A stretch of 32,241 nucleotides of DNA from Actinomycetes bacterium. Its GTDB lineage: Bacteria; Actinomycetota; Acidimicrobiia; Acidimicrobiales; JAKAOS01. The stretch lies in contig JAJYWE010000016.1 of NCBI GenBank assembly GCA_021791675.1, positions 1-32,241 of the forward strand. Reading direction: 5' to 3'. The notes under the pieces are model-generated. The model did no database searches. It was not told where the DNA came from and worked only from the letters and a program-made list of their open reading frames with translations. Positions 14,910 to 32,241 of the stretch are shown here, piece by piece; position 1 is the first letter of the stretch; every line of letters starts with the position of its first letter. Position numbers and translations under genes: made by a program.

Positions 14910-15871
14910 GCCACGGCCGCCGCAGCTCGGCGCTGGGTGAACTTGAGGAAGCCGAAGGAGAGGATGAACGTGCCGACCGCGAGCAGCACGGCGATCGCCG
15001 CAGCGTAGTTCGGGTTGTTGAAGGTGAAGGCCTGCGTGTAGGCCATCAGGTTCGGGGTGTAGGTACTGGTGATGGTGCCGGAGAGCGTCCGCATCACCTC
15101 TGGCTCGCTGAACAGCTGCAGCGTGCCGATGATGGAGAAGACCCCGGTGAGCACGAGTGCCGGGAAGACCAGCGGGATCTTGACCCTCGTGGCCACCTTC
15201 CAGTCGGTGGCCCCGTCCAGGCGGGCCGCCTCGAAGAGATCCCGTGGCAGCGCCTGGAGCGCGGCGAAGATGATGAGCATGTTGTAGCCGGTGTACTCCC
15301 AGGTGACGATGTTCGCGATGGACCAGAGGGCCAGGTTCTGGCCGAGGAAGTCCACGTGGCCGACCGGCGTGTGGCCGAGGATGCTCACGATGGGACTGAT
15401 CCCCGGCACGTAGAGGAAGCCCCACAGGATGGCTGCGAGCACGCCCGGGATGCCGTAGGGGAGGAAGAACGCGAGCCGGAAGAAGCGGCGGAGCTTGACC
15501 CGACCCCAGTCCAGGAGGAGCGCGCACGTGAGCGCGAGGCCCAACATGACCGGGATCTGCACCACGCCGAACAGCAGCATCCGGAGCACCCCGCTCGTGA
15601 AGGCGGGGTCCGTGAGCGCGGTCCCGTAGTTGTGGAGCCCGACGAAGTGCTGCGAGGTCGCCCCCGACAGCCCGAGCCCGGACGTCGAGACCGAGAAGAG
15701 GCTGATGTAGATCGAATAACCGATCGGGATCAGGATGAAGACCGCGAACAGCAGGAGGAAGGGAGTGAGGAAGAGCAGCGGGGCTGCGATCTTCCGGCTC
15801 GAGCGCCCCCGGCGCACTCTCGCACGCTGGGGCGCTACCTCCTCCGTCGTGACCACCGCTGCCGTCGACAT
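14906..15871 (-). CDS. ABC sugar transporter permease (MalF/UgpA-like)
   Basis: The 321-residue protein has a positively charged N-terminus (RRGRSSRK) before TM1 (LLFLTPFLLLFAVFILIPIG). About six segments follow, with the EAA loop LFEAARLDGATDWKVATRVK, characteristic of the MalF-type CUT1 permease. It pairs with the next permease and with the binding lipoprotein to carry oligosaccharides across the membrane. The start ATG 15871 is preceded by a GAGGAGGGGGAG purine run. A 335-bp gap with a stem-loop separates it from the binding-protein gene, which probably lowers its expression relative to that gene. Confidence 0.9.
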   Translation of the reverse strand: MSTAAVVTTEEVAPQRARVRRGRSSRKIAAPLLFLTPFLLLFAVFILIPIGYSIYISLFSVSTSGLGLSGATSQHFVGLHNYGTALTDPAFTSGVLRMLLFGVVQIPVMLGLALTCALLLDWGRVKLRRFFRLAFFLPYGIPGVLAAILWGFLYVPGISPIVSILGHTPVGHVDFLGQNLALWSIANIVTWEYTGYNMLIIFAALQALPRDLFEAARLDGATDWKVATRVKIPLVFPALVLTGVFSIIGTLQLFSEPEVMRTLSGTITSTYTPNLMAYTQAFTFNNPNYAAAIAVLLAVGTFILSFGFLKFTQRRAAAAVA

Positions 15872-15940
15872 CTCCCCCTCCTCCTCGGGCCCTCGTGGCC
15901 CTTCGACTCCTGAACCGTCCCCGCCAGCGGCGCAACGACT

Positions 15941-16032
15941 GCCGGTCACGCACCGGGACCTCCGCCGGTCACGCACGGGGAACACCCGCCTGTCACGCAG
16001 GGGAGGCCCGCCGCTACGCACCGGGAAACCCC
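15941..16032. repeat. Four imperfect ~23-bp tandem repeats
   Basis: Units begin at about 15941, 15964, 15988 and 16010, with the shared core GCCGGTCACGCACCGGGAAC and small changes (for example TGTCACGCAGGGGAGG in the third and a missing base in the fourth). They lie in the transcribed spacer of the operon, ~70 bp upstream of the MalF-like gene. Function unknown. Confidence 0.8.
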
Positions 16033-16156
16033 CTCGCGCTCGCCTCCTCGACACCCGGCAACGCCCGCTGGCCACGCCACGCCACGCTGGCAGCGCGCCT
16101 TGCGCGCTCGTCGCAGCCGCCCGGAGCGCGCACCTGGTTCCGGCCCGGGCGCGGGC

Positions 16157-16197
16157 CCGCACCCTCCCCGACCGTCAACGGGTCAGGGAGGGTGCGG
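16157..16197 (-). terminator. Strong intercistronic stem-loop after the binding-protein gene
   Basis: CCGCACCCTCCC pairs with GGGAGGGTGCGG in a 12-bp stem, and inside it GACC pairs with GGTC around the loop GTCAACG. It starts 10 bp after the TGA of the solute-binding gene. With no U-tract it is more likely a partial terminator or mRNA-stabilising structure than a full stop. Confidence 0.65.
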
Positions 16198-16206
16198 TGG
16201 GCGCTC

Positions 16207-17571
16207 CTACCCGGCCCGGACGCTGAAGCCCTGGGACTTCATGAGCGACAGCGTCTGGGACTGCACGGACTGGAGGACCGCCCCGAGCGACGGACCGCCG
16301 GTCACCGACTTCGCGAACCCGTCGGCCATCTGGGTGAAGGTCTGGCTCATCACCGGTCCCCAGGTCCAGTTCGGGTCGGTGTTCGCCGCGGACTGGCGGA
16401 AGACCGTGAAGATGTTCTGCCCGCCGAAGAAGGCAAGTCCCGAGTTGACCTCGGGAAGCTTCTGCGCCTGGACCTCCGCGGGATAGAGCCCACCTGCCGA
16501 GATCAGCGTCTTCCAGCTGCTGAGGTTGGTGTTGAGCCACATCGCGAACTCGGCCGCCTGCTGGGGGTGCTTGGTGTCCTTGAACACCACGGTCGTCGAA
16601 CCACCCCAGCTGCTCTCGACCGGCGCGCCCGAGGTGCTCCACTGCGGCATCGGGGCCACTCGCCAGTCACCCTTCGTTCCGGGGGCGTTCGAGGCGATGG
16701 TGTTGTCGCCCCAGACGGCGGTCGGCCAGGTGGCGACGACACCGTTCTGGAGGTCGTGGTACCAGCCGTCGGCGAAGTCGGGCTCCACCTTGACCAGCTT
16801 CTTGTTGATGAGCTGCTGCCAGTAGTTCGCCACCTGCATGCTCGCCGCGTCGTCGATGTGGACCACCCAGCTCTGCCCCGAGATGGAGAACCATCGTGCC
16901 TGGTTCTGCCACGCCAGCGCCGAGAACCACTGCGTGTCCTGGGGCGGGAAGGCGGTGATGTAGATGTTCGGATTGTCGGCGTGGAGCGTTGCGGCATCAC
17001 TGGCGTACTGGGCCCAGGTCGTCGGCACCGGCAGGTGGTACTTCTTGAAGATGTCGGCCCGGTAGAAGAGCGCCGTCGGGCCGGTGTCCTGGGGGATCGC
17101 GTAGATCGCGCTGCCGAGCGTGACGGCGCTCCAGGCGGACGGGATGAAGTCCTGCTTCACCGAGGCGGCGCCATAGGGTGCGAGGTTCACCAGGCCTCCG
17201 ACGTGCTCGAAGTTCGGGAGCACCGAGTACTCGACCTGACCGAGATCGGGTGCGTTACCCGCCTGGAGTGCGGTGAACATCTTGGCGTAGGTCCCTGCGT
17301 TACCCGAGGTGGTCTCGTCCAGCGTGACGTGGATTCCCGGGTGGGTCTTGTTGAAGAGGTTCACCGAGGCCTGGATGCCGGGCACCCAGGACCAGAAGGT
17401 GAGGTTCACGGTTCCGGCAGAGCTGGTCTTCCCGCGTGCGCTCGCCGTGCTCGTGGTGGAACCGGACGAGCCGGTGCCGGAGCTCGAGCTGCACGCAGCG
17501 AGAGCCAGTGAGGCTGCGGCAGCAGCCAGCCCGAGGCGCGCGACGCCTCGACCACGCCAACGTCTTGTCAT
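16207..17571 (-). CDS. ABC transporter extracellular sugar-binding lipoprotein
   Basis: The 454-residue protein begins MTRRWRGRGVARLG, then a hydrophobic signal and lipobox SLALAAC (acylated Cys near residue 28), followed by a Ser/Gly/Thr linker. The mature part has the family-1 solute-binding pattern: VNLTFWSWVPGIQASVNLFNKTHPGI, MFTALQAGNAPDLGQVEYS, YAIPQDTGPTALFYRADIF and the C-lobe with QQAAEFAMWLNT. Tryptophans along the cleft (for example WSW, WFS, WTWG) suit carbohydrate stacking. ATG 17571 is preceded by GGGGGAAG at 4 bases, better than upstream in-frame starts that would bury the signal peptide. It is the first gene of the galactoside operon. Confidence 0.92.
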   Translation of the reverse strand: MTRRWRGRGVARLGLAAAAASLALAACSSSSGTGSSGSTTSTASARGKTSSAGTVNLTFWSWVPGIQASVNLFNKTHPGIHVTLDETTSGNAGTYAKMFTALQAGNAPDLGQVEYSVLPNFEHVGGLVNLAPYGAASVKQDFIPSAWSAVTLGSAIYAIPQDTGPTALFYRADIFKKYHLPVPTTWAQYASDAATLHADNPNIYITAFPPQDTQWFSALAWQNQARWFSISGQSWVVHIDDAASMQVANYWQQLINKKLVKVEPDFADGWYHDLQNGVVATWPTAVWGDNTIASNAPGTKGDWRVAPMPQWSTSGAPVESSWGGSTTVVFKDTKHPQQAAEFAMWLNTNLSSWKTLISAGGLYPAEVQAQKLPEVNSGLAFFGGQNIFTVFRQSAANTDPNWTWGPVMSQTFTQMADGFAKSVTGGPSLGAVLQSVQSQTLSLMKSQGFSVRAG

Positions 17572-17633
17572 GTGCTTCCCCCGTTGCTCGATCGCCGGCA
17601 CCGCTTCCGGAGAGCTTCCGCCGCTCGGAGCTC

Positions 17634-17700
17634 GTGCGATGTTGTTGTGTTCTCGGCGGCCGTGCGGGACACGACCGCCTGAGAACCGACACGATCGCAC
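17634..17700. promoter_or_regulatory. Long interrupted dyad, candidate operator in the divergent promoter
   Basis: GTGCGAT (17634-17640) pairs with ATCGCAC (17694-17700). Inside it GTTCTC-GGCGG (17649-17659) pairs with CCGCC-T-GAGAAC (17675-17686), with a single extra T. All arms share one centre near 17667. The right outer arm overlaps the -10 region of the binding-protein operon. The most likely ligand is the DeoR protein encoded at the operon's end. Confidence 0.6.
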
Positions 17701-17719
17701 AGGCTCACTCGATTGTCAA
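17691..17719 (-). promoter_or_regulatory. Candidate sigma-70-type promoter of the galactoside transport operon
   Basis: On the minus strand TTGACA (17719-17714) is a perfect -35 box. It is followed after 17 bases by GATCGT (17696-17691), a weak -10. The 5' leader to ATG 17571 would be about 110 bases and includes most of the dyad, as expected for repressor control. Confidence 0.5.
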
Positions 17720-17774
17720 CGCGCCCTCGCACGCACTCCGGCCACAGCACCACGGGGGACGGCCCTCGGCGAGT

Positions 17775-17786
17775 TACGCTGCGGCG
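17775..17786 (+). promoter_or_regulatory. Candidate -10 box for a leaderless alpha-galactosidase transcript
   Basis: TACGCT (17775-17780) fits TANNNT and ends six bases before ATG 17787, so the transcript would start at the start codon. No Shine-Dalgarno sequence is present. The -35 position shows no consensus, so activation or weak basal activity is possible. Confidence 0.35.
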
Positions 17787-19304
17787 ATGCACGACGAGCT
17801 CTCCGACGAGTCCTTCAGCCCGGTGGCAGCGCTCGAGATCGATCCGTCTCGGGCGCTGATCTACGAGCACGGCTGGCAGTCGTGGAGCCCCGCCGGCGCC
17901 TACCGACCGGGGGAGGACTCACCCCGGCCCAAGCTGGCTCGGACGCAGATCATGGGCTTCCGGCCAGGATCTCCAGCACCGAGGGCGGTCTTCCAGGGCG
18001 AGGGACTCCTCGCCGTCGACCCCGGTGACGGCGGGCCGGTCGAGATCTTCTCGAGCCCCGACCCCTGGCACGCAGTGGCCTCCATCCGCGCGCGGGCCCA
18101 CGAGGGGCGGGTCGTGGTCTCCGCGAACGGACCGGTGGAGCGACGGACGAGCCGTGAGCACGAGCGGCTCGGCGCTGCCCTCGGGAGCTGGGCGACGGAG
18201 CTCGCAGCCAGGCGAACGGGCTCGCGCAGCCCCGCACACCTCGGACCCCCGGTCGAGCTACGCCCACTCGACCCGGTGTGGTGCAGCTGGTACTGCCTCT
18301 GGCGCGGCGTCACGGCACCCGACGTGGCGGCGGCGATCTCGGGGATCGATCGTGCGGGACTCGAGGTCCGGGTCGTCCAGGTCGACGACGGTTGGCAGGC
18401 AGGGATCGGGGACTGGGACGAGGTCCGGGAGGGCTTCGGCGACCTCGGATCCCTGGCGGGTCGGATCCGAGACGGCGGCCGCGCGGCAGGTATCTGGGTG
18501 GCACCGTTCCTGGTAGGGAGCGAGAGCAGGCTCGCGCGCACCCACCCCGACTGGCTGGTGGGAGCGGCGGACGCGGGAGAGAACTGGGAGCAACGGCTCG
18601 GGGTGCTCGACGTGACCCATCCCCAGGCCGCCGCGTACCTCACCACGAGCCTGCGCGCCCTCGTCGACATGGGGTTCGACCTGTTCAAACTGGACTTCCT
18701 CTACGGCGGCGCGATCGAGGGCCGGCGCCACGCCGACTGTTCCGGACTGGACGCCTACCAGGAGGGGATGCGCGTCGTCTCCGAGGCGATCGGACCCGGG
18801 CCTACCCTCCTCGGCTGCGGCGCACCCCTCCTCCCGAGCATCGGCTGGGTGCATGCGATGCGGATCGGCCCGGACATCGCGCCCTGGTTCGCACCGCCCG
18901 AGGGAGACCTGAGCCTCCCCGGGGGCCTCTCGGCGCGCCTCGCCACCCGCGCCCGCGCCTTCGCCCACGGCCGGTTCTGGGTCAACGATCCGGACTGCCT
19001 CCTCGCCCGTCCCGGGGTCGAGCGCCGGCAGGCCTGGGCATCGCTGCTCGGCCGCATGCCGGGCACCCTGGCAGCCTTCAGCGACCTCCCGGACGACCTC
19101 GACCCCTGGGGCATCGATGCCGTGCGGCGGCTGCTCCGTCCTGCGACCACGACACCCCTCGACATCGACCTCGACGAGCTGCTGGCACCGGAGGACCTGG
19201 ACGAGCTCCCGGCACGAGACGGCCGGGAGGCCCTCGACACCGGGGACAACGACACCGCGAACAGGGACACCGCGAACAGGGACGCACGCGCGAGCGGCGC
19301 CTGA
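17787..19304 (+). CDS. Alpha-galactosidase (GH36-type, clan GH-D)
   Basis: The 505-residue protein carries clan GH-D hallmarks. HGWQSWSP (about residue 28) belongs to the N-terminal beta domain. PVWCSWYC opens the TIM barrel and VVQVDDGWQ follows. GIWVAPFLVG is next. The nucleophile is Asp303 in LFKLDFLYGG, and the acid/base is Asp363 in MRIGPD. It releases terminal alpha-galactose from raffinose- or melibiose-type sugars. There is no signal peptide, so it acts in the cytoplasm, next to the divergent importer. It is shorter than full GH36 enzymes (~700); the usual C-terminal beta-sandwich is replaced by an acidic tail with the duplicated pentapeptide DTANR. It could also act on related alpha-linked sugars. 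Confidence 0.87.
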   Translation: MHDELSDESFSPVAALEIDPSRALIYEHGWQSWSPAGAYRPGEDSPRPKLARTQIMGFRPGSPAPRAVFQGEGLLAVDPGDGGPVEIFSSPDPWHAVASIRARAHEGRVVVSANGPVERRTSREHERLGAALGSWATELAARRTGSRSPAHLGPPVELRPLDPVWCSWYCLWRGVTAPDVAAAISGIDRAGLEVRVVQVDDGWQAGIGDWDEVREGFGDLGSLAGRIRDGGRAAGIWVAPFLVGSESRLARTHPDWLVGAADAGENWEQRLGVLDVTHPQAAAYLTTSLRALVDMGFDLFKLDFLYGGAIEGRRHADCSGLDAYQEGMRVVSEAIGPGPTLLGCGAPLLPSIGWVHAMRIGPDIAPWFAPPEGDLSLPGGLSARLATRARAFAHGRFWVNDPDCLLARPGVERRQAWASLLGRMPGTLAAFSDLPDDLDPWGIDAVRRLLRPATTTPLDIDLDELLAPEDLDELPARDGREALDTGDNDTANRDTANRDARASGA

Positions 19305-19510
19305 GGGGCGGACCGAGCAGCTGGCGGAACGAGCCCAGCGAGTCGCCAGGGCACGCGCTGCGCGCAGCGGCGCCCGAGGAGCGCGACCCCCTCGCCTGGG
19401 TGTCCGGCAACGGTTGGGCCGAACGGCCCTACCGCTCCGGTCCCTCGGAGGCGAGGATCCGATCACGGGCTCGGACACTGCCAGCCGAGCTCGTCGAGAA
19501 GGAGCTGACC

Positions 19511-20071
19511 ATGCCCACGGCACCGTTCGAGACCGCAACGCGCTTCAGCGTGGAGTGGGAGCTCGTCCATCCCGAGCCCCCCTCGCTCCCTCCGCCGGCG
19601 ACCCTGCGGCCGTCGGTCGGACTGCGGTGGTGCCCTGCCTGCGTGGTGACGCCGCTCGAGGCCGCGGACGGCGCTGCCCCTACCTGGTGCCGGACCTGCG
19701 GGTCCACCTGGCAGCCAGACGCCCTGCCGACCGAGCGGCCGGCCGCGACAAGGGGTCTCGGCGAGCCCGAGCGGAGACGCCCCGGCGCAACGGGGGGTCA
19801 GGGTGAGTCCGTTCCGACGACAACGGAGCGAGCGTCCCGAGTCGACGACACCTGGCCGGCAGGGGACGTCACCCCAACCGATCGTGGCCGGGCGGCGGCG
19901 TCGGGTGATCCAGCCAGTCCCGTACGTGCGGCGGCAGCGCGATCGACGAGTCCAGCCCGGGGGCAGGACGCGCCGGGCCGAACACCATCCGCGCCGGGAG
20001 CTCGCCCGCCCAGAGCGAGAGCAGCCCGTCGGGGCCGTCGCCGTCGTCCGGCGGGCCGGCACGAACCTTGA
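19511..20071 (+). CDS. Possible small zinc-ribbon protein
   Basis: ATG 19511 is preceded by AAGGAG with a 6-base gap, one of the best ribosome-binding sites in the window. The first ~80 residues contain a zinc-ribbon pattern CPAC...CRTCG (Cys-x2-Cys, 18 residues, Cys-x2-Cys). The frame then continues as Arg/Ala/Pro-rich low complexity to a stop at 20069-20071, running ~200 bp antisense through the end of the PPOX-family gene. That tail is probably not functional, or the true end is lost by a frameshift. No family recognised. The gene lies ~200 bp after the alpha-galactosidase. Confidence 0.4.
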   Translation: MPTAPFETATRFSVEWELVHPEPPSLPPPATLRPSVGLRWCPACVVTPLEAADGAAPTWCRTCGSTWQPDALPTERPAATRGLGEPERRRPGATGGQGESVPTTTERASRVDDTWPAGDVTPTDRGRAAASGDPASPVRAAAARSTSPARGQDAPGRTPSAPGARPPRARAARRGRRRRPAGRHEP

Positions 20072-20624
20072 CCGAGGCCTCCGCGAGGCCGAGGACGACG
20101 ACCGTGGTCTGCGCGAGCTCTGCCGCAGTCGGTGCCCGGGCGTAGTCCCACTGTCCGGGGAGGACCTGTTCGGAGATCGCGCGCAGCGCAACCAGCTTCT
20201 CGTCGGGATCGCGGAGCGCCTGCGCCTCGCCGTAGATCATCGCCGCCCGGTAGTTGGCCGCCTCGTTGAACACCGAACGGGCGAGCACGATCCCGTCGAG
20301 ATGCGTGACGGTGACACAGACCGGGTTACCCCGGGCGCGTCGCAAGCTCTGGCTGGCCACCGATCCGTGGACGTAGAGCCGATCACCTGCGCGCCCGTAG
20401 GTCGTCGGTACGACCATCGGCCAGCCGTCCACGACGACACCGAGGTGGCAGAGGAACCCGGCGTCGAGGACCGCCTCCAGCGCAGCGCGGTCGTGGCTCC
20501 CCTGCTCCGGGAAGCGCCGAAGGCGCGTCCGCTCGCTCGGGGCTGCGAGCCCCCCCTCCGCCCGCTCGCTCGGGGCTGCGAGCCCCCCCTCCGCCCGCTC
20601 GCTCGGCGATTCCTCTCCCGTCAC
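19869..20624 (-). CDS. Pyridoxamine-5'-phosphate-oxidase-like FMN-binding protein
   Basis: The 251-residue protein matches the flavin-nucleotide-binding PPOX-like group. It has a helix ALEAVLDAGFLCHLGVVVDG, the strand WPMVVPTTYGRAGDRLYVHG, then SVASQSLRRARGNPVCVTVTH, DGIVLARSVFNEAANYRAAM and a C-terminal WAGELPARMVFGPARPAPGL segment. Relatives bind FMN or a related deazaflavin and act in flavin redox chemistry or haem/bilin handling; the substrate here is unknown. GTG 20624 is 9 bp downstream of the Rrf2 stop, so the two are probably co-transcribed. The N-terminus has a duplicated 11-residue unit (SERAEGGLAAP twice, then SER) from a 33-bp tandem repeat, and may be unstructured. Confidence 0.85.
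   Translation of the reverse strand: MTGEESPSERAEGGLAAPSERAEGGLAAPSERTRLRRFPEQGSHDRAALEAVLDAGFLCHLGVVVDGWPMVVPTTYGRAGDRLYVHGSVASQSLRRARGNPVCVTVTHLDGIVLARSVFNEAANYRAAMIYGEAQALRDPDEKLVALRAISEQVLPGQWDYARAPTAAELAQTTVVVLGLAEASVKVRAGPPDDGDGPDGLLSLWAGELPARMVFGPARPAPGLDSSIALPPHVRDWLDHPTPPPGHDRLG
20531..20606. repeat. 33-bp tandem repeat with internal hairpin, inside the PPOX-family gene
   Basis: Two exact 33-bp copies (20531-20563, 20564-20596) plus a 10-bp partial copy. Each full copy contains GGGGCT-GCG-AGCCCC, a perfect 6-bp stem with a 3-base loop. Being a multiple of 3, copy-number change keeps the frame. On the mRNA the two stems sit just after the start codon. Confidence 0.9.
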
Positions 20625-20633
20625 CCCGTCACC

Positions 20634-21776
20634 CTAGGTCACAGGCACCGGGCCGGGGCCCGCCGCGAGCCCGCTCGGGCGGGACCGGTCACCCTCCGAC
20701 ACGGGTGTCGCTCCCGCCGACCTCCGCCGCCGGCCCGAGCTCGCACGCTCCACGAGGCGTGCGCGTCGGGGTGGGCCACCCCTCGCAGTCCCGTCCAGGG
20801 CGAGGCTGCGGAGGAACGCGCGCGCCCCCACCCGCCCGAGGCGCGACACCAGCTCGAGGTCGGCGAGCTCGGCGTCGGGCGACGCGCCCTTTCCCCTGGA
20901 GGGCGGGCGGAGGAGGCCCGCGAGGCTGAGCTCGCTCCCCCCGTCGGGCCCAGCCAGGACGGTCAGGGTCAGATCGGCATGCGACGACGACCCGTCGGCA
21001 CCCGTCGCCTCCCAGGCAAGCTCGAACCTTCGCGGGGGCGCAGCGACCAGTAGGGGTCGGGATCGCGCCCCGCCGGGAACGCGCAACGTTGCGGCCGACG
21101 CGCCCTCGACCCCGACCGGGTGGACCGCGGCCGAGACCTCGACCGGCGCCCACGGCGGCGTGCGCGGGCGGGTGCGGAGCCGGACGGCGTCGGCTTCCCG
21201 GTAGGCCCGCGCAACGGCGCGACCGACGCGTTCGGGCTGCGCCACCCACGCGGCGAGCGCGTCGGGATCGCTCTCCAGCTGGATCCGGTCGGACAGCGCG
21301 ATGCTCGTCGGAATCGGTCGGTGGGAGTCGAGAGGGCGACCGCTACTCGAGCCCGCGAGCGCCTGGTCGCGCGCCGCAAGCGTCGCAAGGCTGGTGGTGG
21401 CGAGTGCGTCGCGTAGCGCGTCCGCCGCCGAGCGCCACGTCTCGTGGAGCGGGCAGACCGAGTCCCAGCGGCACGGCCCATCGCCGAGCGCGCAGCGCGC
21501 AGCGCGCAGCGGACCCTCTGCCGCCTCCACGACGTCGAGGAGGGTGATCGCCTCGGGCGCGCGGGCGAGGCGGTAGCCGCCGTCCCGGCCCGAACGCGAC
21601 TCGGCGAGCCCCGCTCGCACGAGGACCGTCACGATCTGGGGAGCGAAGGTGAGCGGCACACCCATCTCGGCAACGATCTCGCGGACCTTGCGCCACTCGC
21701 CCGTGGGCCAGGCCCTGGCCAGGGCCAGCGCCGAGCGCATCACGTAGTCCCCCCGCTTGGAAAGGCTCATGTCCAT
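20634..21776 (-). CDS. Rrf2-family iron-sulfur regulator with long C-terminal extension (paralogue 1)
   Basis: Of 380 residues, the first ~75 form the Rrf2 winged helix (LSKRGDYVMRSALALA; VPLTFAPQIVTVLVRAGLAE; SGRDGGYRLAR). Cys95, Cys102 and Cys108 in RCALGDGPCRWDSVCPLHE (C-x6-C-x5-C) are positioned to hold an iron-sulfur cluster, as in IscR, NsrR and RsrR. After residue ~150 comes an extension of ~230 residues absent from ordinary Rrf2 proteins (140-170 residues). It includes FELAWEATGADG, SSSHADLTLTVLAG and a terminal helix, SRPBCC-like by pattern. The start ATG 21776 has a -10 box exactly 6 bases upstream (leaderless). It diverges from the polyferredoxin operon and precedes the PPOX-family gene by 9 bp. 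Confidence 0.85.
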   Translation of the reverse strand: MDMSLSKRGDYVMRSALALARAWPTGEWRKVREIVAEMGVPLTFAPQIVTVLVRAGLAESRSGRDGGYRLARAPEAITLLDVVEAAEGPLRAARCALGDGPCRWDSVCPLHETWRSAADALRDALATTSLATLAARDQALAGSSSGRPLDSHRPIPTSIALSDRIQLESDPDALAAWVAQPERVGRAVARAYREADAVRLRTRPRTPPWAPVEVSAAVHPVGVEGASAATLRVPGGARSRPLLVAAPPRRFELAWEATGADGSSSHADLTLTVLAGPDGGSELSLAGLLRPPSRGKGASPDAELADLELVSRLGRVGARAFLRSLALDGTARGGPPRRARLVERASSGRRRRSAGATPVSEGDRSRPSGLAAGPGPVPVT

Positions 21777-21782
21777 GCGGCA

Positions 21783-21811
21783 ACTGTATGGGATCGCTTT
21801 TGATTAGTCAA
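21783..21811 (-). promoter_or_regulatory. Leaderless promoter of Rrf2 paralogue 1
   Basis: Minus strand: TTGACT (21811-21806), 17-base spacer, TACAGT (21788-21783), then six bases to ATG 21776. The start of transcription would coincide with the ATG. The -35 lies in the palindrome AGTCAATGACT (21806-21816), which suggests autoregulation. Confidence 0.65.
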
Positions 21812-21844
21812 TGACTTGACGTAGGGTTGCGCTTGGAATATTGT
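21806..21844 (+). promoter_or_regulatory. Promoter and putative operator of the polyferredoxin operon
   Basis: Plus strand: -35 TTGACG (21816-21821), 17-base spacer, -10 TATTGT (21839-21844). The -35 boxes of the two divergent promoters are 4 bp apart. The perfect palindrome AGTCA-A-TGACT (21806-21816) covers the minus -35 and touches the plus -35, so one bound dimer could silence both. AT-rich bases here contrast with the surrounding GC-rich DNA. Confidence 0.65.
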
Positions 21845-21893
21845 TCTGGGCAGGCCGACACCGAGCCAGACCCGACCGAGCCAAGGAGGAACG

Positions 21894-23522
21894 ATGACGA
21901 TCCTCGCCCCACCGGACCAGCAGGCGGCGACGCCGAGAGCTCCGGGCCTTCCCGACCCGATCCCCGTGGCGCTGCACCTGCGACCCCCGAAGCGCGAGGG
22001 AGCCGAGGCCCGTTTCGCGGGCACCGACCCGCCGAAGGGGTGGGACGTCTCCCGCCACCCCCGCGTCGCCCGCCTCCTGCGGAGCCGGCGTCTCCAGTTC
22101 TTCCTCATCCTCCCGAACCAGATCGTCTTCTGGCTCGTGATCTTCCTCGGCCTGCTCGGCACGGTCGTGCCCGGTCTCAACTTCGGGACGGCGATCACCT
22201 GGTACATCTGGTTCTGCCTGGTCTTCGTGATGATGGTCGTCGTCGGCCGGGCGTGGTGCGCGATGTGCCCCTTCGGCGGCTTCGCGGAGTGGGTCCAGCG
22301 CCGGACCTTCTGGCAGCGGACCCAACGCACCCTCGGCCTCGGCCGCAAGCTCCCCGAGCCGATCGCCCGCTACGGGCTGCTCATCTCGGTCGGCTCGTTC
22401 CTCCTGCTCACCTGGATCGAGGAGTTCTTCAACATCGCAGGCCCCGGCAACCCCTGGGACACCAGCTACATGGTGCTCGGCATCGTGGCCTCGGCACTGC
22501 TGTTCTTCCTCGTCTTCGAGCGGCGCACCTTCTGCCGCTACGCCTGCCCGCTCTCCGCGCTCATCGGCACGGTCGGCGCGATGGGCTCCGCGGCGGGCTT
22601 TCGCACCCGGGACCGCGAGGTCTGCCTGAGCTGTGCGACCAAGGACTGCATGCGCGGTGGGGAGGAGGGCTACGGCTGCCCCTGGTACACCTGGCCGGGG
22701 AGCGCGGACTCGAACCTCACCTGCGGGCTCTGCAGCGAGTGCTACAAGGCCTGCCCGTCGGAGAACGTCGGCTTCTTCCTCCAGCCCCCCCTCACCTCGG
22801 TGATCGCGCCGAAGCGGCGCCGGGCCGACGTGGCGTGGGCCGTCGCCCTGCTCTGGGGTCTCGTCGTCTTCCAGCAGGTCAACGCCACCAACGGCTACGC
22901 AGTGCTCGACGCCTGGCTCAACCGTGCAACGCACCTCGGGTATCCGAACCCGATCGACTACCTCGGGATCATCGCCGTGGTCGCGCTCGCGTTCGCCGGG
23001 ATCGCCTGGGGCATGTCGCGCCTCCTCGGGCGCGACCCGAGCCCCTCGACGGGTCAGGTCCGCGGCGTCCTCGGCACGCTCCTCCCGACCGGCTCTGCAG
23101 TCGGGAGTCCGAGCGGTGCCTTCGTGGACCGGCCGAGCCGCTTCCGGTCCTTCTTCGTCCCGCTCGCCTACGGGATGATCCCGGTGGTCGGCGCCGACTA
23201 CTTCGCCCGGCAGCTCCCGAAGTTCTTCAAGCACGCCTCTCGGATCGTGCCCGCCATCGGCGCATGGTTCGGCGAGGGCTCCACCCACTCGAGCCTCTAC
23301 CACCTCCGGCTCCTGTCGAACCCCGGGATCGTCGCCGTACAGGTCGCAGTCATCGCCCTCGGCACGCTCGGGAGCGCCTGGGCAACCTGGAAGATCGCCC
23401 AGCGGGACCTGGCTCCGGTCTCCTCCCACCCGGCGGCGACCCGCTACGCGAGCGTCGGCGTCGCCATCGCCCTCGGCGTCGCCGCGGGCTTCCTCTACGT
23501 GATCATGCACGCCGCATCCTAA
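21894..23522 (+). CDS. NapH/NosR-like membrane polyferredoxin
   Basis: The 542-residue protein has about six membrane segments and a chain of cysteine motifs. There is a membrane-edge pair WCAMCPFGG (Cys122, Cys125), and a second pair FCRYACPLSA (Cys214, Cys218). A cluster site follows with Cys244, Cys247 and Cys252, then CGLCSECYKACP (Cys277, 280, 283, 287). The paired CxxCP/CxxxCP plus ferredoxin domain is the signature of the NapH/NosR/YccM group, which passes electrons between the quinone pool and reductases. It lacks the N-terminal FMN-binding periplasmic domain of true NosR. ATG 21894 follows AAGGAGG by 4 bases. The next gene starts 9 bp after its stop, with AAGGAG overlapping the TAA. 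Confidence 0.88.
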   Translation: MTILAPPDQQAATPRAPGLPDPIPVALHLRPPKREGAEARFAGTDPPKGWDVSRHPRVARLLRSRRLQFFLILPNQIVFWLVIFLGLLGTVVPGLNFGTAITWYIWFCLVFVMMVVVGRAWCAMCPFGGFAEWVQRRTFWQRTQRTLGLGRKLPEPIARYGLLISVGSFLLLTWIEEFFNIAGPGNPWDTSYMVLGIVASALLFFLVFERRTFCRYACPLSALIGTVGAMGSAAGFRTRDREVCLSCATKDCMRGGEEGYGCPWYTWPGSADSNLTCGLCSECYKACPSENVGFFLQPPLTSVIAPKRRRADVAWAVALLWGLVVFQQVNATNGYAVLDAWLNRATHLGYPNPIDYLGIIAVVALAFAGIAWGMSRLLGRDPSPSTGQVRGVLGTLLPTGSAVGSPSGAFVDRPSRFRSFFVPLAYGMIPVVGADYFARQLPKFFKHASRIVPAIGAWFGEGSTHSSLYHLRLLSNPGIVAVQVAVIALGTLGSAWATWKIAQRDLAPVSSHPAATRYASVGVAIALGVAAGFLYVIMHAAS

Positions 23523-23531
23523 GGAGCGACC

Positions 23532-25736
23532 ATGACCTTCCTCGGAACCACTGAACCCCAGATCCTTGCCCTCGGGACCAACCGAGCGGCACAGCCCACG
23601 CAGCCGCTCGTCCACGTCCTCGGCGACCGCTGCGCGGGCTGCCAGGAGTGCGTGGTCCGCTGCCCCACCGGGGCGCTCGACCTCGACGTCACGACCTGGA
23701 CCGTCCTCGTCGATCAGGACCGCTGCGTGGCCTGCGGGCAGTGCGTGCGGACCTGCCCGTTCTCGGCCATCACGGTCGCAGGCGCTCCTCAGGTGTCCCC
23801 ACGTCTGGCACTCGAGGTCGAGCATCCCGCCTCGTTGGAACACGACCGCCACGAGACCAGGAGGGGGATCGCAACCTGGGTGGACGCGCTCGCCGAGGCG
23901 GCCCGCTGCCTCGACTGCCCCGACCCCACGTGTGTCCGCGGCTGCCCGGTCCACAACGACATCCCTGGCTTCATCCGTGCGCTCGGAACCGGTGACCTGG
24001 ACCAGGCGCACGAGGTCCTGCGACGGACCACGTTCCTCCCCGACGTCTGCTCCCGGGTCTGTGACCAGGCTCTACAGTGCGAGGGGGCCTGTACGTGGTC
24101 CCTCGCAGGTGCCGAGCCGGTCGCGATCGGCGCGCTCGAGCGCTTCGTCGCCGACAACGCGCCCGTCCCTCCGCCGGCCGCCCCGACCCGCCCCGACGCG
24201 GGGGCGGCCGACGGGCTCTCGGTCGCAGTCGTTGGGTCCGGTCCCGCAGGGCTGTCCGCGGCGGCGGAGCTCGTCGGGGCCGGGGCGACCGTGACCCTCT
24301 ACGAGCAGCGCGACGAGCTCGGGGGCCTCCTCCGCTGGGGCATTCCGGACTTCACCCTCCCCGACGTGGTGGCGCGCCGCCTTCCCGACGCGCTCCTCGC
24401 AGCGGGCGTCGAGGTCCGCTTCGGCTACACCCTCGAGCCGGCCGGACTGGAGCAACTCCGTAGCGACCACGACGCCGTCGTCCTCGCTACGGGCGCGTCG
24501 CTCCCGCTCGGCATCCGTCTCCCGGGGAGTGACCTCGACGGCGTCTGGGACGCGACCCGCTTCCTTGTCGAGGCGCGTCACGCGCTCACGACCGGTGGTC
24601 CACTCCCAGGCGTGGCGCCAGAGACGGACCGGCCAACGGTGCTCGTGCTCGGGGGAGGGAACACCGCGATGGATGTCGCCCGCTCCGCCCGGCGGCTCGG
24701 TGCGGCCGCGATCTGTGTGGACTGGATGGATCCGCGCTTCGCTCCCGTCCGACCGGACGAGCTGGCCGAGGCGCGTGCCGAAGGAGTCGAGGTCCGCTTC
24801 TCCCGGACGCTGACCGGGCTGAACGGCGAGGAGGGCCGCGTGCGCAGCGCCGAGCTCGCCGCCACCGTCCAGGAGCGCGCGGCCGAGCGGCCCCGGGTCG
24901 TCCCGAACAGCATGGAGCGCCTCTCGGTGGACCTCGTGGTGACGGCGATGGGGTACCGCATCGATCCCGACCTCGCCGCGCTCGCGGGGAGTGTGCCCGT
25001 CAAGAAGGAGGTGCCGGCGGTGCCGGACCGACGCTGGATCGGGAGTGGGATCCTGGCGGCGCCCGCGCCGCCGTTCGCGCGCCGGCAGCCGGTCGGGCGC
25101 CTAGCCGTCGGGCGAGAGCAGGCTCGCGTCCTCGCGGGCCTGCCCCGTCTCGAGCGCACCTGGGTGGTGGGGGACGCGCTCGTCGGGCCGTCGACCGTCG
25201 TCGAGGCGATGGCGCAGGGGAAAGTGGCAGCCCAGGCGATCGTGCACCACGCCCCGCGACGTCCTGCCGAGCCGTGGGTCGCCCCGCGGCGGGTGCTCAT
25301 CGGGGTCGAGAGCCGGGGTGGCACCACCGCGGCCCACGCAGCTGCGCTCGCGAACGGCCTCGTGCGGGCTGGCCATGAGGCGCGGGTGCTCCCGCTCCGC
25401 GACATCCGAGCCGGGGAGCTCGCCTGGGCGGACGCCCTGGTCGTCGCAACCTGGGTGGAGGGGTTCGTGCTCGCGGGGGCGGGGCCAGCGAAGGCGACCC
25501 GCTCGTGGCTGGCGACGCTCCCGCCCTTGGCAGGGATGCCGGTCGGCCTGCTCTGCACCTACGCCGTCTCGCCCGGGCGCACGCTCCAGCGCATGCGCGC
25601 CGAGGTCGAGCGCCACGGCGGCCGGGTCGTGGCTGGCGCGGCCCGCTCTGGCCGGCCAAAGGGACACCAGCTGGATGGCCAGGGCCTCGGGGTCCTCCTC
25701 GACGCTTTCTCTCGCCCGAACGCAGACGCCGCCTAG
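23532..25736 (+). CDS. Fusion: 2[4Fe-4S] ferredoxin, GltD-like FAD/NAD(P) oxidoreductase, flavodoxin-like domain
   Basis: The 734 residues form three modules. Residues 30-80 carry two CxxCxxCxxxC cluster motifs (Cys34, 37, 40, 44 and 65, 68, 71, 75). Residues ~110-570 match the glutamate-synthase small-subunit/DPD-type module. It has CLDCPDPTCVRGCPVHNDIP (Cys126-138), further cysteines 173-187, an FAD GSGPAGLSAA loop near 235, an NAD(P) LGGGNTAMDVA loop near 372, and the closing GPSTVVEAMAQGK helix. Residues ~575-734 look flavodoxin-like (VLIGVESRGGTTAAHAAALA; ADALVVATWVEGF). It probably moves electrons between NAD(P)H, flavins and ferredoxin-type centres, with the membrane polyferredoxin as partner. 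No glutamate synthase large subunit is nearby. Its stop shares CTAG with the convergent Rrf2 gene. Confidence 0.88.
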   Translation: MTFLGTTEPQILALGTNRAAQPTQPLVHVLGDRCAGCQECVVRCPTGALDLDVTTWTVLVDQDRCVACGQCVRTCPFSAITVAGAPQVSPRLALEVEHPASLEHDRHETRRGIATWVDALAEAARCLDCPDPTCVRGCPVHNDIPGFIRALGTGDLDQAHEVLRRTTFLPDVCSRVCDQALQCEGACTWSLAGAEPVAIGALERFVADNAPVPPPAAPTRPDAGAADGLSVAVVGSGPAGLSAAAELVGAGATVTLYEQRDELGGLLRWGIPDFTLPDVVARRLPDALLAAGVEVRFGYTLEPAGLEQLRSDHDAVVLATGASLPLGIRLPGSDLDGVWDATRFLVEARHALTTGGPLPGVAPETDRPTVLVLGGGNTAMDVARSARRLGAAAICVDWMDPRFAPVRPDELAEARAEGVEVRFSRTLTGLNGEEGRVRSAELAATVQERAAERPRVVPNSMERLSVDLVVTAMGYRIDPDLAALAGSVPVKKEVPAVPDRRWIGSGILAAPAPPFARRQPVGRLAVGREQARVLAGLPRLERTWVVGDALVGPSTVVEAMAQGKVAAQAIVHHAPRRPAEPWVAPRRVLIGVESRGGTTAAHAAALANGLVRAGHEARVLPLRDIRAGELAWADALVVATWVEGFVLAGAGPAKATRSWLATLPPLAGMPVGLLCTYAVSPGRTLQRMRAEVERHGGRVVAGAARSGRPKGHQLDGQGLGVLLDAFSRPNADAA

Positions 25737-26848
25737 GACTCGGCATCGGCTCCAGACGAGGCGCCTTCGAGTGCTGCGGCAACCTGACGGAGAAAGCGGC
25801 GCACGACGCGACGCGCCTCGGCCTCGACCGTCTCGAGTGACCTCGAGGGAGGAAGCCCGACCCGCTGGTGCCACTGGGCATCGAGACGGAGCTCGCTTCG
25901 CTCACCGTCCAGCTCGTGCACCGTGAGGCCGCCCTCGAGACGACTTCCCCGCCCAGGCACCCCAAGCCGCCAGCCGAGGAGGAACCGAGCGCGTTCGGGA
26001 GCTGCTCCCGGCGCCGCCTCGTCCGCTGCCGCCTCCCCTGCTGCCCCGTCCGCTGCCGCCGCGCCTGCGGTGGCGACGGGGCGGCGGGCGGTCGAGCTCG
26101 CGACCGCGCCGCCTCCGAGCACGGGAGTGTCGGGGGTACCGAGTGGGATCGGAACCACGCTCGCGTCCAGTACGGCAGCGAACGGCGCGTCGGCTGGCCT
26201 TCCCCCGTCGTCGCGTGCCTGCTCTCCCGGGTCCCTCGCTGGACGCCAGGCGCCGCGGAGCGAGGGGGCGATCGCCTCGGCCACGAGCGCCGCGATCGGG
26301 GGGCGGCCGAGGCCGAGCGCAGCGCTCGCCACCTCGGCCCCGCACTCCACCTGGATCCGATCGACGAGGAGGAACGAGCCGAGCTCGGCTCGGTGGGAGT
26401 CGGCCGGCACGGCGTAGGTGCCCGCCTCGAGCGCGGCGTCTCGCGAGGCCAGCTCGGCCAGCGTCGTCCGGGACAAGAGCTCCCGCAACGCCGCGGTGGC
26501 CGCCGTCCAGGTCTCGTGGAGCGGGCAGACGTTCTCCCAGCGGCAGGGACCCTCCCCGAGCGCGCAGCGCTCCGATCGCAGCGGGCCCTCGCCCGCCTCG
26601 ATCACCTCGAGCACGCTGACCTCGGAGGGCGGCCGGCTCAGCCGGTAGCCGCCGGTCCGGCCCGCCCGCGAGCTCGCGAGGCCCGCACGGACGAGGTCGG
26701 CGAGGATCTGGGAGGCGAAGGTCTGCGGGACGTCGGTCTCCTCCACGACCTCCCGGATCTTCCGCCAGCTCGCGGTGTCGTAGGCCCGAGCCAGCGAGAT
26801 CGCCGACCTCACGACGTAGTCACCGCGTTTGGAGAGCGTCAGGTCCAC
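25733..26848 (-). CDS. Rrf2-family iron-sulfur regulator with long C-terminal extension (paralogue 2)
   Basis: The 371-residue protein aligns without gaps to paralogue 1 over the first ~110 residues (LTLSKRGDYVVRSAISLARA; TFASQILADLVRAGLASSRAG), with cysteines at the same positions 95, 102 and 108 (RCALGEGPCRWENVCPLHE). The extension diverges more. A Gly/Ala-rich linker precedes FLLGWRLGVPGRG, LEGGLTVHELDGERSELRLD and a C-terminal helix ETVEAEARRVVRRFLRQV, again SRPBCC-like by pattern. GTG 26848 matches the paralogue's ATG position. Its stop overlaps that of the electron-transfer fusion gene tail to tail. It may respond to the same signal as paralogue 1, or control other genes. Confidence 0.85.
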   Translation of the reverse strand: MDLTLSKRGDYVVRSAISLARAYDTASWRKIREVVEETDVPQTFASQILADLVRAGLASSRAGRTGGYRLSRPPSEVSVLEVIEAGEGPLRSERCALGEGPCRWENVCPLHETWTAATAALRELLSRTTLAELASRDAALEAGTYAVPADSHRAELGSFLLVDRIQVECGAEVASAALGLGRPPIAALVAEAIAPSLRGAWRPARDPGEQARDDGGRPADAPFAAVLDASVVPIPLGTPDTPVLGGGAVASSTARRPVATAGAAAADGAAGEAAADEAAPGAAPERARFLLGWRLGVPGRGSRLEGGLTVHELDGERSELRLDAQWHQRVGLPPSRSLETVEAEARRVVRRFLRQVAAALEGASSGADAES

Positions 26849-26967
26849 CGACGCCCACCGCCCGGCCGGGGTCGAGTCCCAAAGCGCCCCTTCGGGCCGT
26901 TCATGACCCCAGGTGTAGCCGCTGGCTCCTCGTTCAGCGGCCGTTCCACCATGGCGCGGCCGGGGGC

Positions 26968-27168
26968 TCAGGCAACTGCCAGCCGGAGCCCGAGCTCCAC
27001 GAGGAGCCAGCCCGAGCGCCGCCGCAGCGCGCGCACACCAGTTCGAGCCGGAACCGCCTCCCCCCGGGTGGCCCGCTTGGCCTCCGCGGCTGCACGCGAC
27101 GCAGCAGCCGCAGCGCAGCGCTCGGCGCCGAGGCGACGCGCGTAGTCGACGTGGAAGTGGGCGGACAC
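26968..27168 (-). CDS. Small hypothetical protein
   Basis: The 66-residue product starts SAHFHVDYARRLGAERCAAA, continues as an Ala/Arg-rich helix and ends RRRSGWLLVELGLRLAVA. Short actinobacterial proteins with a basic helix and a terminal GWLLVxLGLRLA segment are common and uncharacterised. GTG 27168 follows AGGAG by 7 bases. The terminal segment could associate with the membrane. It is flanked by gaps of 119 and 207 bp in which I see no further gene. Confidence 0.55.
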   Translation of the reverse strand: MSAHFHVDYARRLGAERCAAAAASRAAAEAKRATRGEAVPARTGVRALRRRSGWLLVELGLRLAVA

Positions 27169-27375
27169 GGGAGGACTCCTGGCTCGTTCTGTCGAATCGG
27201 GCCATCTGTCGTGACCGAGTCGCTCGCGAAGACGACGCGACGGTTCGGGCGGTTGGCCCATGCGGGGGTACCAGGGAACCGTAGCCGTCCCTCCCCGTCG
27301 CATCCAGTGGATTTCGCGGGGCTCCCGGGCTCGGTCGCGCGCGAGGACCGGCGCCGTCCTGCACCGGCAAGCCGG

Positions 27376-28926
27376 TCAGTTGACGAGCCGCTCCCGACCC
27401 TCCCAGTAGGGCGCGCGGAGCTTGAACTTCTGGAGCTTGCCCGTCGCGGTACGGGGGAGGGCGTCCCGGAGCTCTACTCGGGTCGGGCACTTGAAGTGGG
27501 CGATGCGCGCTCGGCAGAACTCGATGAGCTCCTCCGGGGTGGGCTCGGACCCGTCGCCACGCACCGGCACGACCAGCGCGACCACCGTCTCACCCCACCG
27601 ATCGTCCGGCACGCCGATGACGGCCACCTCGGCCACGCCGGGGTGCTGGTAGAGGCAGTCCTCGACCTCGATCGACGAGACGTTCTCTCCCCCGGAGATG
27701 ATGACGTCCTTCTTCCGGTCCGCGATGACGGTGTACGCTCCCTCCTGGAAACCCCCGTCGCCCGTGTGGAACCAGCCGTCGACGAGGACCTTCGCAGACT
27801 CCTCTGGCTGGTTCCAGTACCCGTCGAACACGTGGTTCCCGCGAGCGAGAACCTCACCCTCCTCGTCGACCCGGACGCGGATCCCGACGGCGGGCACCCC
27901 CGCCCGCGAGAGCAGCCGGCCGCGGGTTGCCGGGTCGAGGCTGTCCCACTCGGCCGGCGCTCGGTTGACCGTGAGGACCGGGGAGGTCTCGGTGAGCCCG
28001 TAGATCTGGATGAACTCCCAGCCGAGCTCGGTCTCCACCCGCTCGATGACCCGCGAGGGTGGTGGCGCCCCGGCCACCACGATCCGCATGGTGTCGCGTC
28101 CGGGTACCTCCTCGCCCGCCTTGCGCCGGGCCTCCGCGGCGTTGAGCACCGCCGACACGACCGCTGGCGCGCCACAGGCGAGCGTGATCCCCTCCCGCTC
28201 GATGCGCGCAAGGATCTCCTCGCCGTCGACCTTGCGGAGGACGACATGGCGGCCGCCCATGCCCGTGACCGCGTAGGGCATCCCCCAACCGTTGCAGTGG
28301 AACATGGGCAGGGTGTGGATGAGGACGTCCCGGTCGGTGACGGTGGTGTGCCAGCCGAACGTCACCGCGTTGGTCCAGCAGTTCCGGTGGGTGAGCCGCA
28401 CCCCCTTCGGTCGGGATGTCGTCCCCGAGGTGTAGTTGACCGAGCAGACCGCGTCCTCGTCGGCTTCCCAGCTCGCCGCCGAACCCGGCGGCGCCGGCGC
28501 GAAGAGCTCGGCGTCGGCCGTCCCGTCGAGGACGATTCGCTCCGCCGCCTTCACCCCGGCGAGCCCCTCGTCGAGCTCCGGGTCCACGAGGAGCACCGTC
28601 GCACCCGAGTGCTCGACGATGTACGTGATCTCGTCGGCCGTGAGCCGGAAGTTCACCGGGACGAGCGCCCGGCCCCACGCACTCACCCCGAAGTAGGAGA
28701 TGAAGAACTTGGCGGAGTTGGGGCTCACGATCGCGACCCGCTCACCTCGCCCCACCCCCATCGCATCGAGCGCGGCCGCCATCCCCTCGGCGCGCCGACC
28801 CACCTCGGACCAGGACAGACGGCCGAGCCCGCCCACAGCCCCCGGCTCGTCGACGACCGCCTCCCGTTCCCCGTAGACCAGCTCGGCCCGCTCCAGGAAG
28901 TCCCCAACCGTCAGCGCCACCCGCAT
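27376..28926 (-). CDS. AMP-dependent acyl-CoA synthetase (fatty-acid CoA ligase-like)
   Basis: The 516-residue enzyme has the adenylate-forming core: the P-loop YTSGTTSRPKGVRLTH, then YGLTETSPV and the adenosine-contact segment YWNQPEESAKVLVDGWFHTGD. The hinge is DRKKDVIISGGENVSS and the catalytic lysine lies in PRTATGKLQKFKLR. It activates a carboxylic acid with ATP and transfers it to CoA in the cytoplasm. The HCNGWGMPY segment is typical of medium/long-chain fatty-acid and related ligases, but chain length is not readable. It sits alone; no beta-oxidation partner is adjacent. ATG 28926 is preceded by a purine-rich GGAAGGGG. The 215 bp upstream should hold its promoter. Confidence 0.9.
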   Translation of the reverse strand: MRVALTVGDFLERAELVYGEREAVVDEPGAVGGLGRLSWSEVGRRAEGMAAALDAMGVGRGERVAIVSPNSAKFFISYFGVSAWGRALVPVNFRLTADEITYIVEHSGATVLLVDPELDEGLAGVKAAERIVLDGTADAELFAPAPPGSAASWEADEDAVCSVNYTSGTTSRPKGVRLTHRNCWTNAVTFGWHTTVTDRDVLIHTLPMFHCNGWGMPYAVTGMGGRHVVLRKVDGEEILARIEREGITLACGAPAVVSAVLNAAEARRKAGEEVPGRDTMRIVVAGAPPPSRVIERVETELGWEFIQIYGLTETSPVLTVNRAPAEWDSLDPATRGRLLSRAGVPAVGIRVRVDEEGEVLARGNHVFDGYWNQPEESAKVLVDGWFHTGDGGFQEGAYTVIADRKKDVIISGGENVSSIEVEDCLYQHPGVAEVAVIGVPDDRWGETVVALVVPVRGDGSEPTPEELIEFCRARIAHFKCPTRVELRDALPRTATGKLQKFKLRAPYWEGRERLVN

Positions 28927-29141
28927 CGCCCACCCCTTCCGCTCTCGCTCCCCTCGAGCTCTGCTGGCGAGGATCTCCGCGCCGTAAGGAGTCTACGAAG
29001 ATGCGTGCCTCCGGGCGAGCGGCGGGGTGCGTGCCGACCGGGTCGTTCCTCCCACCCGGCAGCGCCGCGCCGCAGGACGCGACCGAGCGGCCGTACCGGT
29101 GGCTCGCCCGCCCCGGCGCTCGGGCGCCAGCTCGGCGCGCG

Positions 29142-31919: not shown

Positions 31920-32002
31920 CGCAGCCCGCCGTCCACGGCGCGACGGTACCGAGGGGCGCCCCCCGATGGCAGGGGTAGGACCCCGCGCGCGCCGCTCGTT
32001 GA

Positions 32003-32062
32003 GCGGCCCGCAGCCGGGCCGGTGTCCGCCTGCGCGGCCCGCAGCCGGGCCGGTGTCTGCCT
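32003..32062. repeat. 31-bp direct repeat with internal inverted repeat
   Basis: GCGGCCCGCAGCCGGGCCGG begins two copies at 32003 and 32034 (29 bp shared, one mismatch, period 31). Each contains GGCCC-GCAGCC-GGGCC, so two small stems would form in RNA reading through from the TrpB-like gene, 16-75 bp past its stop. Terminator-like role possible; no U-tract. Confidence 0.75.
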
Positions 32063-32077
32063 GAGCGGTCGGCTCGT

Positions 32078-32241
32078 TCAGCCGGCGGTGGCAGGGAGGT
32101 GCGCCAGCGCGGCCGCCACCGCCTCCTCCGGGTAGGCGTAGTCGGTCAGCTCGCCATGCGCGTAGCGGTCGTAGGCCGCCATGTCGAAGTGGCCGTGGCC
32201 GCAGAGCGCGGTCAGGATCACCTTCTCCTCGCCGGTCTCGG
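32078..32241 (-). CDS. C-terminus of a TrpB-like PLP-dependent enzyme (partial)
   Basis: The last 53 codons of a minus-strand gene enter from the right edge. TGEEKVILTALCGHGHFDMA, then YDRYAHGELTDYAYPEE, matches the C-terminus of TrpB2-type tryptophan synthase beta chains (GEEKVILFNLSGHGhFDlaAYdaY). The SGHG phosphate/C-terminal loop appears here as CGHG. The enzyme condenses indole with serine; TrpB2 forms often occur away from the main trp operon. The remainder lies outside the window. Confidence 0.75.
   Translation of the reverse strand, partial: ETGEEKVILTALCGHGHFDMAAYDRYAHGELTDYAYPEEAVAAALAHLPATAG

Follow-up and report, generated by a model that had tools for sequence, protein, structure and literature searches.

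A putative Rrf2 operator joining divergent core promoters at actinobacterial polyferredoxin loci, with a diverged copy in one genome

The region under study lies within a stretch of 32,241 nucleotides, which is referred to here, at its full length, as the window. An Rrf2 regulator gene, rrfA (20634..21776, minus strand), is separated by an intergenic gap of 117 bp from a divergently transcribed electron-transfer operon. The assignment of RrfA (380 aa) was based on Pfam Rrf2 (2.6e-28), an AlphaFold model with fold search, and alignment, and the protein has a winged-helix domain, cysteines in a CX6CX5C pattern, and a C-terminal predicted SRPBCC domain. In the operon, fer (21894..23522, plus strand; 542 aa) encodes a NapH-like polyferredoxin (Fer4_5, 2.8e-11; the match to the NapH/MauN family, 2.7e-07, is far under that family's cut-off) and is preceded by a ribosome-binding site read from the sequence (AAGGAGG, 21883..21889, plus strand). 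It is followed by fad (23532..25736, plus strand; 734 aa), a ferredoxin plus GltD/NfnI-like NAD(P)H flavoprotein (Fer4_20, Pyr_redox_2, and Fer4) whose solved relatives in the PDB include NfnI and glutamate synthase small chains. Beyond the operon lies rrfB (25733..26848, minus strand), which encodes a second Rrf2 regulator that is 64% identical to RrfA over 137 aa and has the common recognition helix. Two further features of the window were noted: (i) a 925-aa frame of a MobF/TrwC-type conjugative relaxase near the right end (29142-31919, minus strand); and (ii) a GC-rich tandem repeat with a 33-bp unit in about 2.3 copies (20531-20606), which encodes an 11-aa repeat at the N-terminus of a pyridoxamine-oxidase-like frame (19869-20624).

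The first-pass annotation described the gap as holding back-to-back promoters that share one palindrome over both -35 boxes. The promoter letters, the 17-bp spacers, and the 4-bp interval between the -35 boxes (21812-21815) were confirmed on the sequence. For rrfA, the -35 box TTGACT (AGTCAA on the plus strand; 21806..21811, minus strand) stands 17 bp from the -10 box TACAGT (ACTGTA on the plus strand; 21783..21788, minus strand), which ends 6 nt before the ATG and predicts a leaderless transcript. For the operon, the -35 box TTGACG (21816..21821, plus strand) stands 17 bp from the -10 box TATTGT (21839..21844, plus strand). Each promoter matches 9 of 12 hexamer positions of a divergent sigma-70 pair when spacers of 16-18 bp are allowed on both strands, and a consensus scan of positions 15000-32241 returned exactly 2 promoter-like sites, both of them the reported ones, against 0.2 in shuffles. 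The palindrome AGTCAATGACT (AGTCA-A-TGACT, 21806..21816) covers the whole minus-strand -35 box and the interval but only the first base of the plus-strand -35 box. The exact string AGTCANTGACT, which was picked post hoc, has a single occurrence in the window, where 0.01 would be expected, and a single one in the 3.13-Mb assembly. Odd palindromes with 5-bp arms number 78 in the window, equivalent to 0.28 per 117 bp, and the 11-bp palindrome taken alone is not significant, because 9.8% of mononucleotide-shuffled versions of the intergenic region contain at least one such palindrome. Conservation of the palindrome core was not borne out either: among 132 loci the string was found at four, namely L001, L002, and L113, which are the window itself, and L130, which is not a polyferredoxin locus.

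Related loci were collected by means of fer, which was detected in 45 of the 198 genomes belonging to the order (own genome counted; G026 only weakly) and in 179 stretches of a wider genome collection. The best 80 of these 179 were used, mostly from records named Actinomycetes, Actinobacteria, or Acidimicrobiales/-aceae bacterium. The locus set comprised 111 members, with several genomes represented both among the order genomes and in the wider collection; L001, a duplicate of the window, was dropped and L002, also the window, was kept, such that counts of 110 include the window. The divergent rrf2-fer layout was found at 64 of the 110 loci, or 52 once near-identical ones were removed (window copy L002 included), while L026 is also divergent and escaped the script's count by having its fer match split.

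Common to the relatives is a 23-bp inverted repeat, AAGTRTAGY-N5-ACTTGACGT, located between the divergent Rrf2 gene and the NapH-like polyferredoxin operon. The two arms are inverted copies of one another, with one matrix fitting both across nine columns. Information content, computed over 52 rows (among them the window and a few in which a site other than the first matched best), is 0.38-2.0 bits per column in the arms and 0.07-0.14 in the five columns between them. The palindrome reported for the window corresponds to the inner arms and spacer of this putative operator; judged from the alignment, what is conserved is the wider 9-5-9 site around the same centre (21811), to which AGT...ACT contributes the inner part and CAATG a random spacer. 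Chance remains the explanation for the CA/TG letters of the spacer and was rejected for the whole site. An FNR/CRP-type reading of TTGATTAGTCAA, made by eye, was dropped as well, its letters being explained by the 9-5-9 alignment. When a matrix built from 45 sites, window excluded, was applied at a threshold of 17 to 913,748 bases of related loci, 129 matches were obtained, and 127 of them fell within 300 bp upstream of fer. At least one match was present at 91 of 110 loci; the window is among the 19 without one at this threshold.

In a scan of arm spacings at a threshold of 18, a spacing of 5 gave 121 matches and the others between 0 and 11 gave 0-4, except for spacings 0 (20 matches) and 10 (22 matches), most of which overlap the spacing-5 sites. 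A second site at spacing 5, resembling ACGTATAGT-N5-ACTATACGT, was detected beyond the first in 26 of 45 regions that lay outside the matrix training set; shuffles gave 0.0, and no other spacing from 0 to 15 gave more than 5. Two sites exceeded the threshold at 24 of the 52 non-redundant loci, and the second lay 52-54 bp from the first in 11 of these and 46-55 bp from it in 20; the common distance is about 53 bp, or about five helical turns. A matrix-free test lent the second site mild support, with at least 7 of 9 pairs in 8 of 44 regions versus 2.5 expected (spacing 7 gives 7). Arm pairing at the first site averaged 5.11 of 9 at spacing 5 and 4.69 of 9 at spacing 10, and a dyad register with spacing 10 was rejected, since second sites favour spacing 5 (26) over 10 (4).

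The core promoters of the relatives were then read against this site. On the minus strand, the left arm is the rrf2 -10 box (TATACT or TACACT in 30 of 45), positioned 6-7 nt before the start codon, and therefore the rrf2 transcript should be leaderless. A canonical rrf2 -35 box was not recognisable in the relatives, including at the position of the window's TTGACT (mean matches of 1.9/6 at 17 bp and 2.4/6 at 18 bp). The right arm includes the operon -35 box; when spacers of 15-19 bp are compared, 34 of 45 relatives have their best -10 at 17 bp. The spacing between this arm and the rrf2 start codon is fixed (29-32 script units) in 45 of 52 rows. Thus, the relatives' site joins the regulator's -10 box, not its -35 box, to the operon's -35 box, and one bound dimer should therefore be able to block both promoters; a second site would cover the operon's start site. 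Simultaneous control of regulator and operon by one dimer, as the first-pass annotation proposed, gains support from the conservation of the divergent layout and of a 23-bp repeat joining both promoters; the palindrome itself is not conserved. Shared control is supported by the comparison, and the palindrome version of it only in part.

The window's own copy, TTGATTAGT-CAATG-ACTTGACGT (21800..21822, plus strand; centre 21811), ranked first of 32,219 window positions, with a matrix score of 15.1 against 4.5 for the next-best position, and was found with the model at 12.1 bits (E 0.0022 in 7 kb). Its right arm, in which the operon -35 box lies, is perfect (half-score 14.7), and its left arm scored 0.3. 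With a total under the 17 of the rrf2-fer operator family, the window site is best described from its letters as a diverged relative of that 9-5-9 family, not a full member. The arms pair at 4 of 9 positions (mostly 4-6 in the relatives), and the dyad centre and inner arms TAGT/ACT are retained. The right arm is 17-18 bp farther from the rrfA start codon than in the relatives (47 versus 29-32 script units); AACTGTATG (21782..21790, plus strand), the positional counterpart of the left arm AAGTRTAGY, lies 23 instead of 5 bp from it. The TTGACT box that gives the pair its clean look arises from this longer stretch. The second site is absent from the window in the matrix scan of 32,219 positions. 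The loci with the closest fer (L026, L003, L034, and L035) carry the usual form of the site, and the window copy is therefore the derived one.

The site was also sought away from the divergent gap. Where no divergent rrf2 was called, 30 of 46 loci still have the site upstream of fer (L026 being one of the 30), and where rrf2 lies apart from fer (L118 and L040) it has its own copy of the site just before its start. The presence of the site by fer and again by a distant rrf2 is our best evidence for an Rrf2 protein as its probable reader. A model search of 12 chosen relatives (12 of the 45 fer genomes) yielded, with E values up to 1 admitted, 18 rows from 9 genomes; 16 of them fall at a fer or rrf2 gene and the other 2 elsewhere, both with E above 0.7. 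Three of the 12 gave no match, and one of these, G172, does hold the site at locus L007, such that the search was not fully sensitive; in two of the 12, only 150 of about 600 candidates were scored. The site thus appears nearly confined to the rrf2-fer locus in the 12 genomes searched. An additional match, GAGTATAGTCAGTGACTTCACAT, was seen near a transporter-like frame at L130 (G105:C41) and is marginal. In the window's own genome the model search returned no match at E up to 10, and the same search also missed the 12.1-bit window site. The right arm ACTTGACGT occurs there 6 times, versus 14 for a reversed control, and none of the other five copies has a fitting left arm by eye.

Among the site-less loci, taken here as 20 with slightly different limits from those giving 19, a 16-bp box such as AGGGACTTTCGGCCCT was found upstream of fer in 7. 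The 90 site-bearing loci have 5 poorer-looking ones, and the overall frequency is 0.04 per 320 bp. These OsdR/DevR-like boxes are at L008, L029, L048, L052, L053, L069, and L100, with L008 and L048 sharing identical upstream sequence. They resemble the OsdR consensus, AGGGCCGATCGGCCCT, of a system related to hypoxia in the excerpted text of its source (PMC5069765), as if a hypoxia regulator had replaced Rrf2 at these loci. The boxes hint at oxygen, NO, or redox as a trigger.

Both regulators of the window carry the Rrf2 domain (PF02082, 99.2 and 100 bits for RrfA and RrfB; cut-off 30). The RrfA model matched CymR (Z 16.7), IscR (15.6), RsrR (14.6), and NsrR (14.4) by fold, with RsrR as the first Foldseek match, and RrfA scored far below the NCBIfam equivalog cut-offs for NsrR (37.3/182 bits), IscR (58/207.55), RirA (56.3/193), and CymR (42.9/195). 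Alongside the CX6CX5C of RrfA, a C-x4-8-C-x4-6-C pattern is present in 57 of 62 divergent Rrf2 proteins, and these cysteines point to an Fe-S cluster. RrfA is most like the divergent copies (76% to L035; nearest by tree path to L028 and L003, a tentative placement), and RrfB clusters with 12 mostly downstream copies (support 92/96, just under the tool's mark). A second Rrf2 gene downstream of the operon was also observed at L058, L064, L088, and L096, as in the window (25733-26848). The divergent copies at these loci are reduced in length (168-211 aa), devoid of the cysteine pattern (L088 and L096), or altered in the helix, which suggests decay or re-use after duplication. For the C-terminal part of RrfA, at about residues 155-335, the model predicts an SRPBCC fold (pLDDT 81.8, pTM 0.57), with TTHA0849 (Z 11.0), Rv2186c (10.8), and a COXG-family protein (10.7) as fold matches. 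Polyketide_cyc2 was matched by 6 of the 30 family members when E values up to 0.5 were allowed (best 1e-4), and the proteins listed for it do not include that of the window. The predicted SRPBCC/START-type extension on the Rrf2 domain is present in all 30 of 30 aligned proteins.

The sequence elements, with their conservation, spacing, and location, and the fold prediction are the direct results of this analysis. The reading we prefer, with a probability of roughly 0.72, is that the locus is the promoter-operator of an autoregulated Rrf2 switch, of which the window carries a derived copy. A regulator of the Fe-S type would probably shut off its own gene together with the neighbouring electron-transfer operon. 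An Rrf2 dimer would bind the 23-bp 9-5-9 inverted repeat in the 117-bp rrfA-fer gap and, in the layout of the relatives, would exclude RNA polymerase from the leaderless rrfA promoter and the operon promoter at once; often a second dimer would occupy the operon's start site, about five helical turns away. The window departs from that layout: its right arm is intact, its left arm has decayed, the rrfA -10 box lies 18 bp farther from the right arm, and no second site is left. Conservation of the right arm might be owed to RNA polymerase alone, given that the -35 box lies in it. If the Fe-S cluster were lost or altered under redox, NO, or iron stress, repression would be lifted and electron transfer linking NAD(P)H with a membrane ferredoxin would be switched on. 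Binding, repression, the cluster, the signal, and the choice between RrfA and RrfB as reader of the site in this genome are inferred.

It is unlikely, though to be taken seriously, that the window's operator has decayed to the point where RrfA no longer regulates and the operon is either constitutive or read by RrfB through the intact right arm. In its favour are the decay of the left arm and loss of the second site, as well as the recognition helices: that of RrfA is unusual (P46 and V49), and RrfB keeps the common PQTFASQILADL with S46 and L49. Nor was another convincing site seen in the assembly, either among the right-arm copies or by the model search, which did not recover the window site. 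Against such decay, rrfA is an intact 380-aa frame that has kept the three cysteines and the C-terminal domain, the dyad retains its centre and inner arms, and RsrR bound artificial half-sites only weakly, as far as the excerpted source goes (PMC5015018).

Rather improbable in our view is that RrfA and its operator co-diverged to a new specificity, which would keep the operon apart from RrfB. Relative to the common helix PQTFASQILAD, RrfA has the changes Q42L, S46P, L49V, A50T, and D51V, and these coincide with the new left arm; V49 is found in no other of 50 divergent Rrf2 proteins. By our own hand alignment, S46 matches Glu43 of IscR, a residue on which the site choice of IscR depends; a published IscR-NsrR comparison places this part of the helix in the Glu43 region (PMC5411485). 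S46 and L49 are invariant in the 46 compared proteins, where the window has P and V, but only with 22 of 70 rows excluded, most of them long-branched and some carrying P46. Nine of the 50 divergent proteins, that of the window among them, carry P46, and a usual site persists at 7 of the 9 loci (Fisher p = 0.08 for P46 versus operator presence, not significant); co-divergence would, moreover, be a case of one genome.

An extended version, in which RrfA is a two-input repressor, is distinctly improbable. Here an Fe-S Rrf2 domain would be combined with an SRPBCC (START-type) pocket sensing a hydrophobic compound such as quinone; the repressor would control a membrane polyferredoxin-flavoprotein exchanging electrons among NAD(P)H, ferredoxin, and the quinone pool; and protein and operator would have co-diverged to a private specificity beside RrfB. 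Very improbable is the absence of any operator, with the conserved letters being two core promoters at a fixed distance in a compact gap: each arm does contain a core promoter hexamer and the window keeps its -35-bearing right arm better than its left, but the 9-5-9 repeat recurs beyond the operon -10 box (26/45), where neither hexamer is needed, the site is also placed before stand-alone rrf2 genes, and a single matrix fits both arms over nine columns.

An autoregulated Rrf2 switch at this locus would give an actinobacterial group seen here almost only as metagenome assemblies a defined putative Rrf2 operator, defined by sequence, spacing, paired sites, and fusion into both core promoters, with the operon it serves named. 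It may also be a naturally occurring example in which regulator and operator changed together alongside a second regulator copy. Our literature searches found no paper joining Rrf2 with Acidimicrobi and, among the papers listed, no description of the rrf2-fer operon or site. Likewise, no description of an Rrf2-SRPBCC fusion, a layout that would give an Rrf2 regulator a probable ligand pocket as modelled, was found in a full-text search, in which the one co-mention is unrelated by title.

Among known systems, IscR shares the Rrf2 fold with RrfA. It differs in that RrfA scores 58 against the IscR cut-off of 207.55 and its neighbour is fer-fad, with no isc operon; the arms of the rrf2-fer site are unlike the IscR motif. 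In IscR, the choice between type 1 and type 2 sites is set by the recognition helix and the cluster, according to the excerpted text (PMC5411485). NsrR of Streptomyces coelicolor, as described in the available portion of its report (PMC4432287), has three cysteines, a 23-bp site, few targets, and its own promoter bound; RrfA is alike in being an Rrf2 protein with three cysteines and, presumably, a 23-bp site, few targets, and its own promoter as a target. The NsrR site, however, consists of two 11-bp repeats 1 bp apart, and RrfA scores 37.3 against the NsrR cut-off of 182. RsrR of Streptomyces venezuelae is an Rrf2 protein encoded divergently from nmrA, with a 107-bp gap and two full sites in the gap; it represses the divergent gene, is probably autoregulated, and binds 630 places (excerpts of PMC5015018). 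The likeness extends to an actinobacterial Rrf2, a divergent gene pair, two sites in the gap, and the first Foldseek match of RrfA. RsrR sites are 11-3-11 and 1 bp apart, whereas those described here are 9-5-9, of other sequence, and commonly 53 bp from start to start; the conserved columns, judged by column information and not by an 11-3-11 matrix, do not follow the RsrR class 1 form. Furthermore, the 630 places bound by RsrR contrast with a site nearly confined to its own locus in the 12 genomes searched, and RsrR chains of 156-166 aa, which lack the SRPBCC part, with the 380 aa of RrfA. Thus, on sequence comparison, the architecture is of a known kind, that of RsrR and NsrR, and what is new is the sequence and spacing of the site and an unusual regulator.
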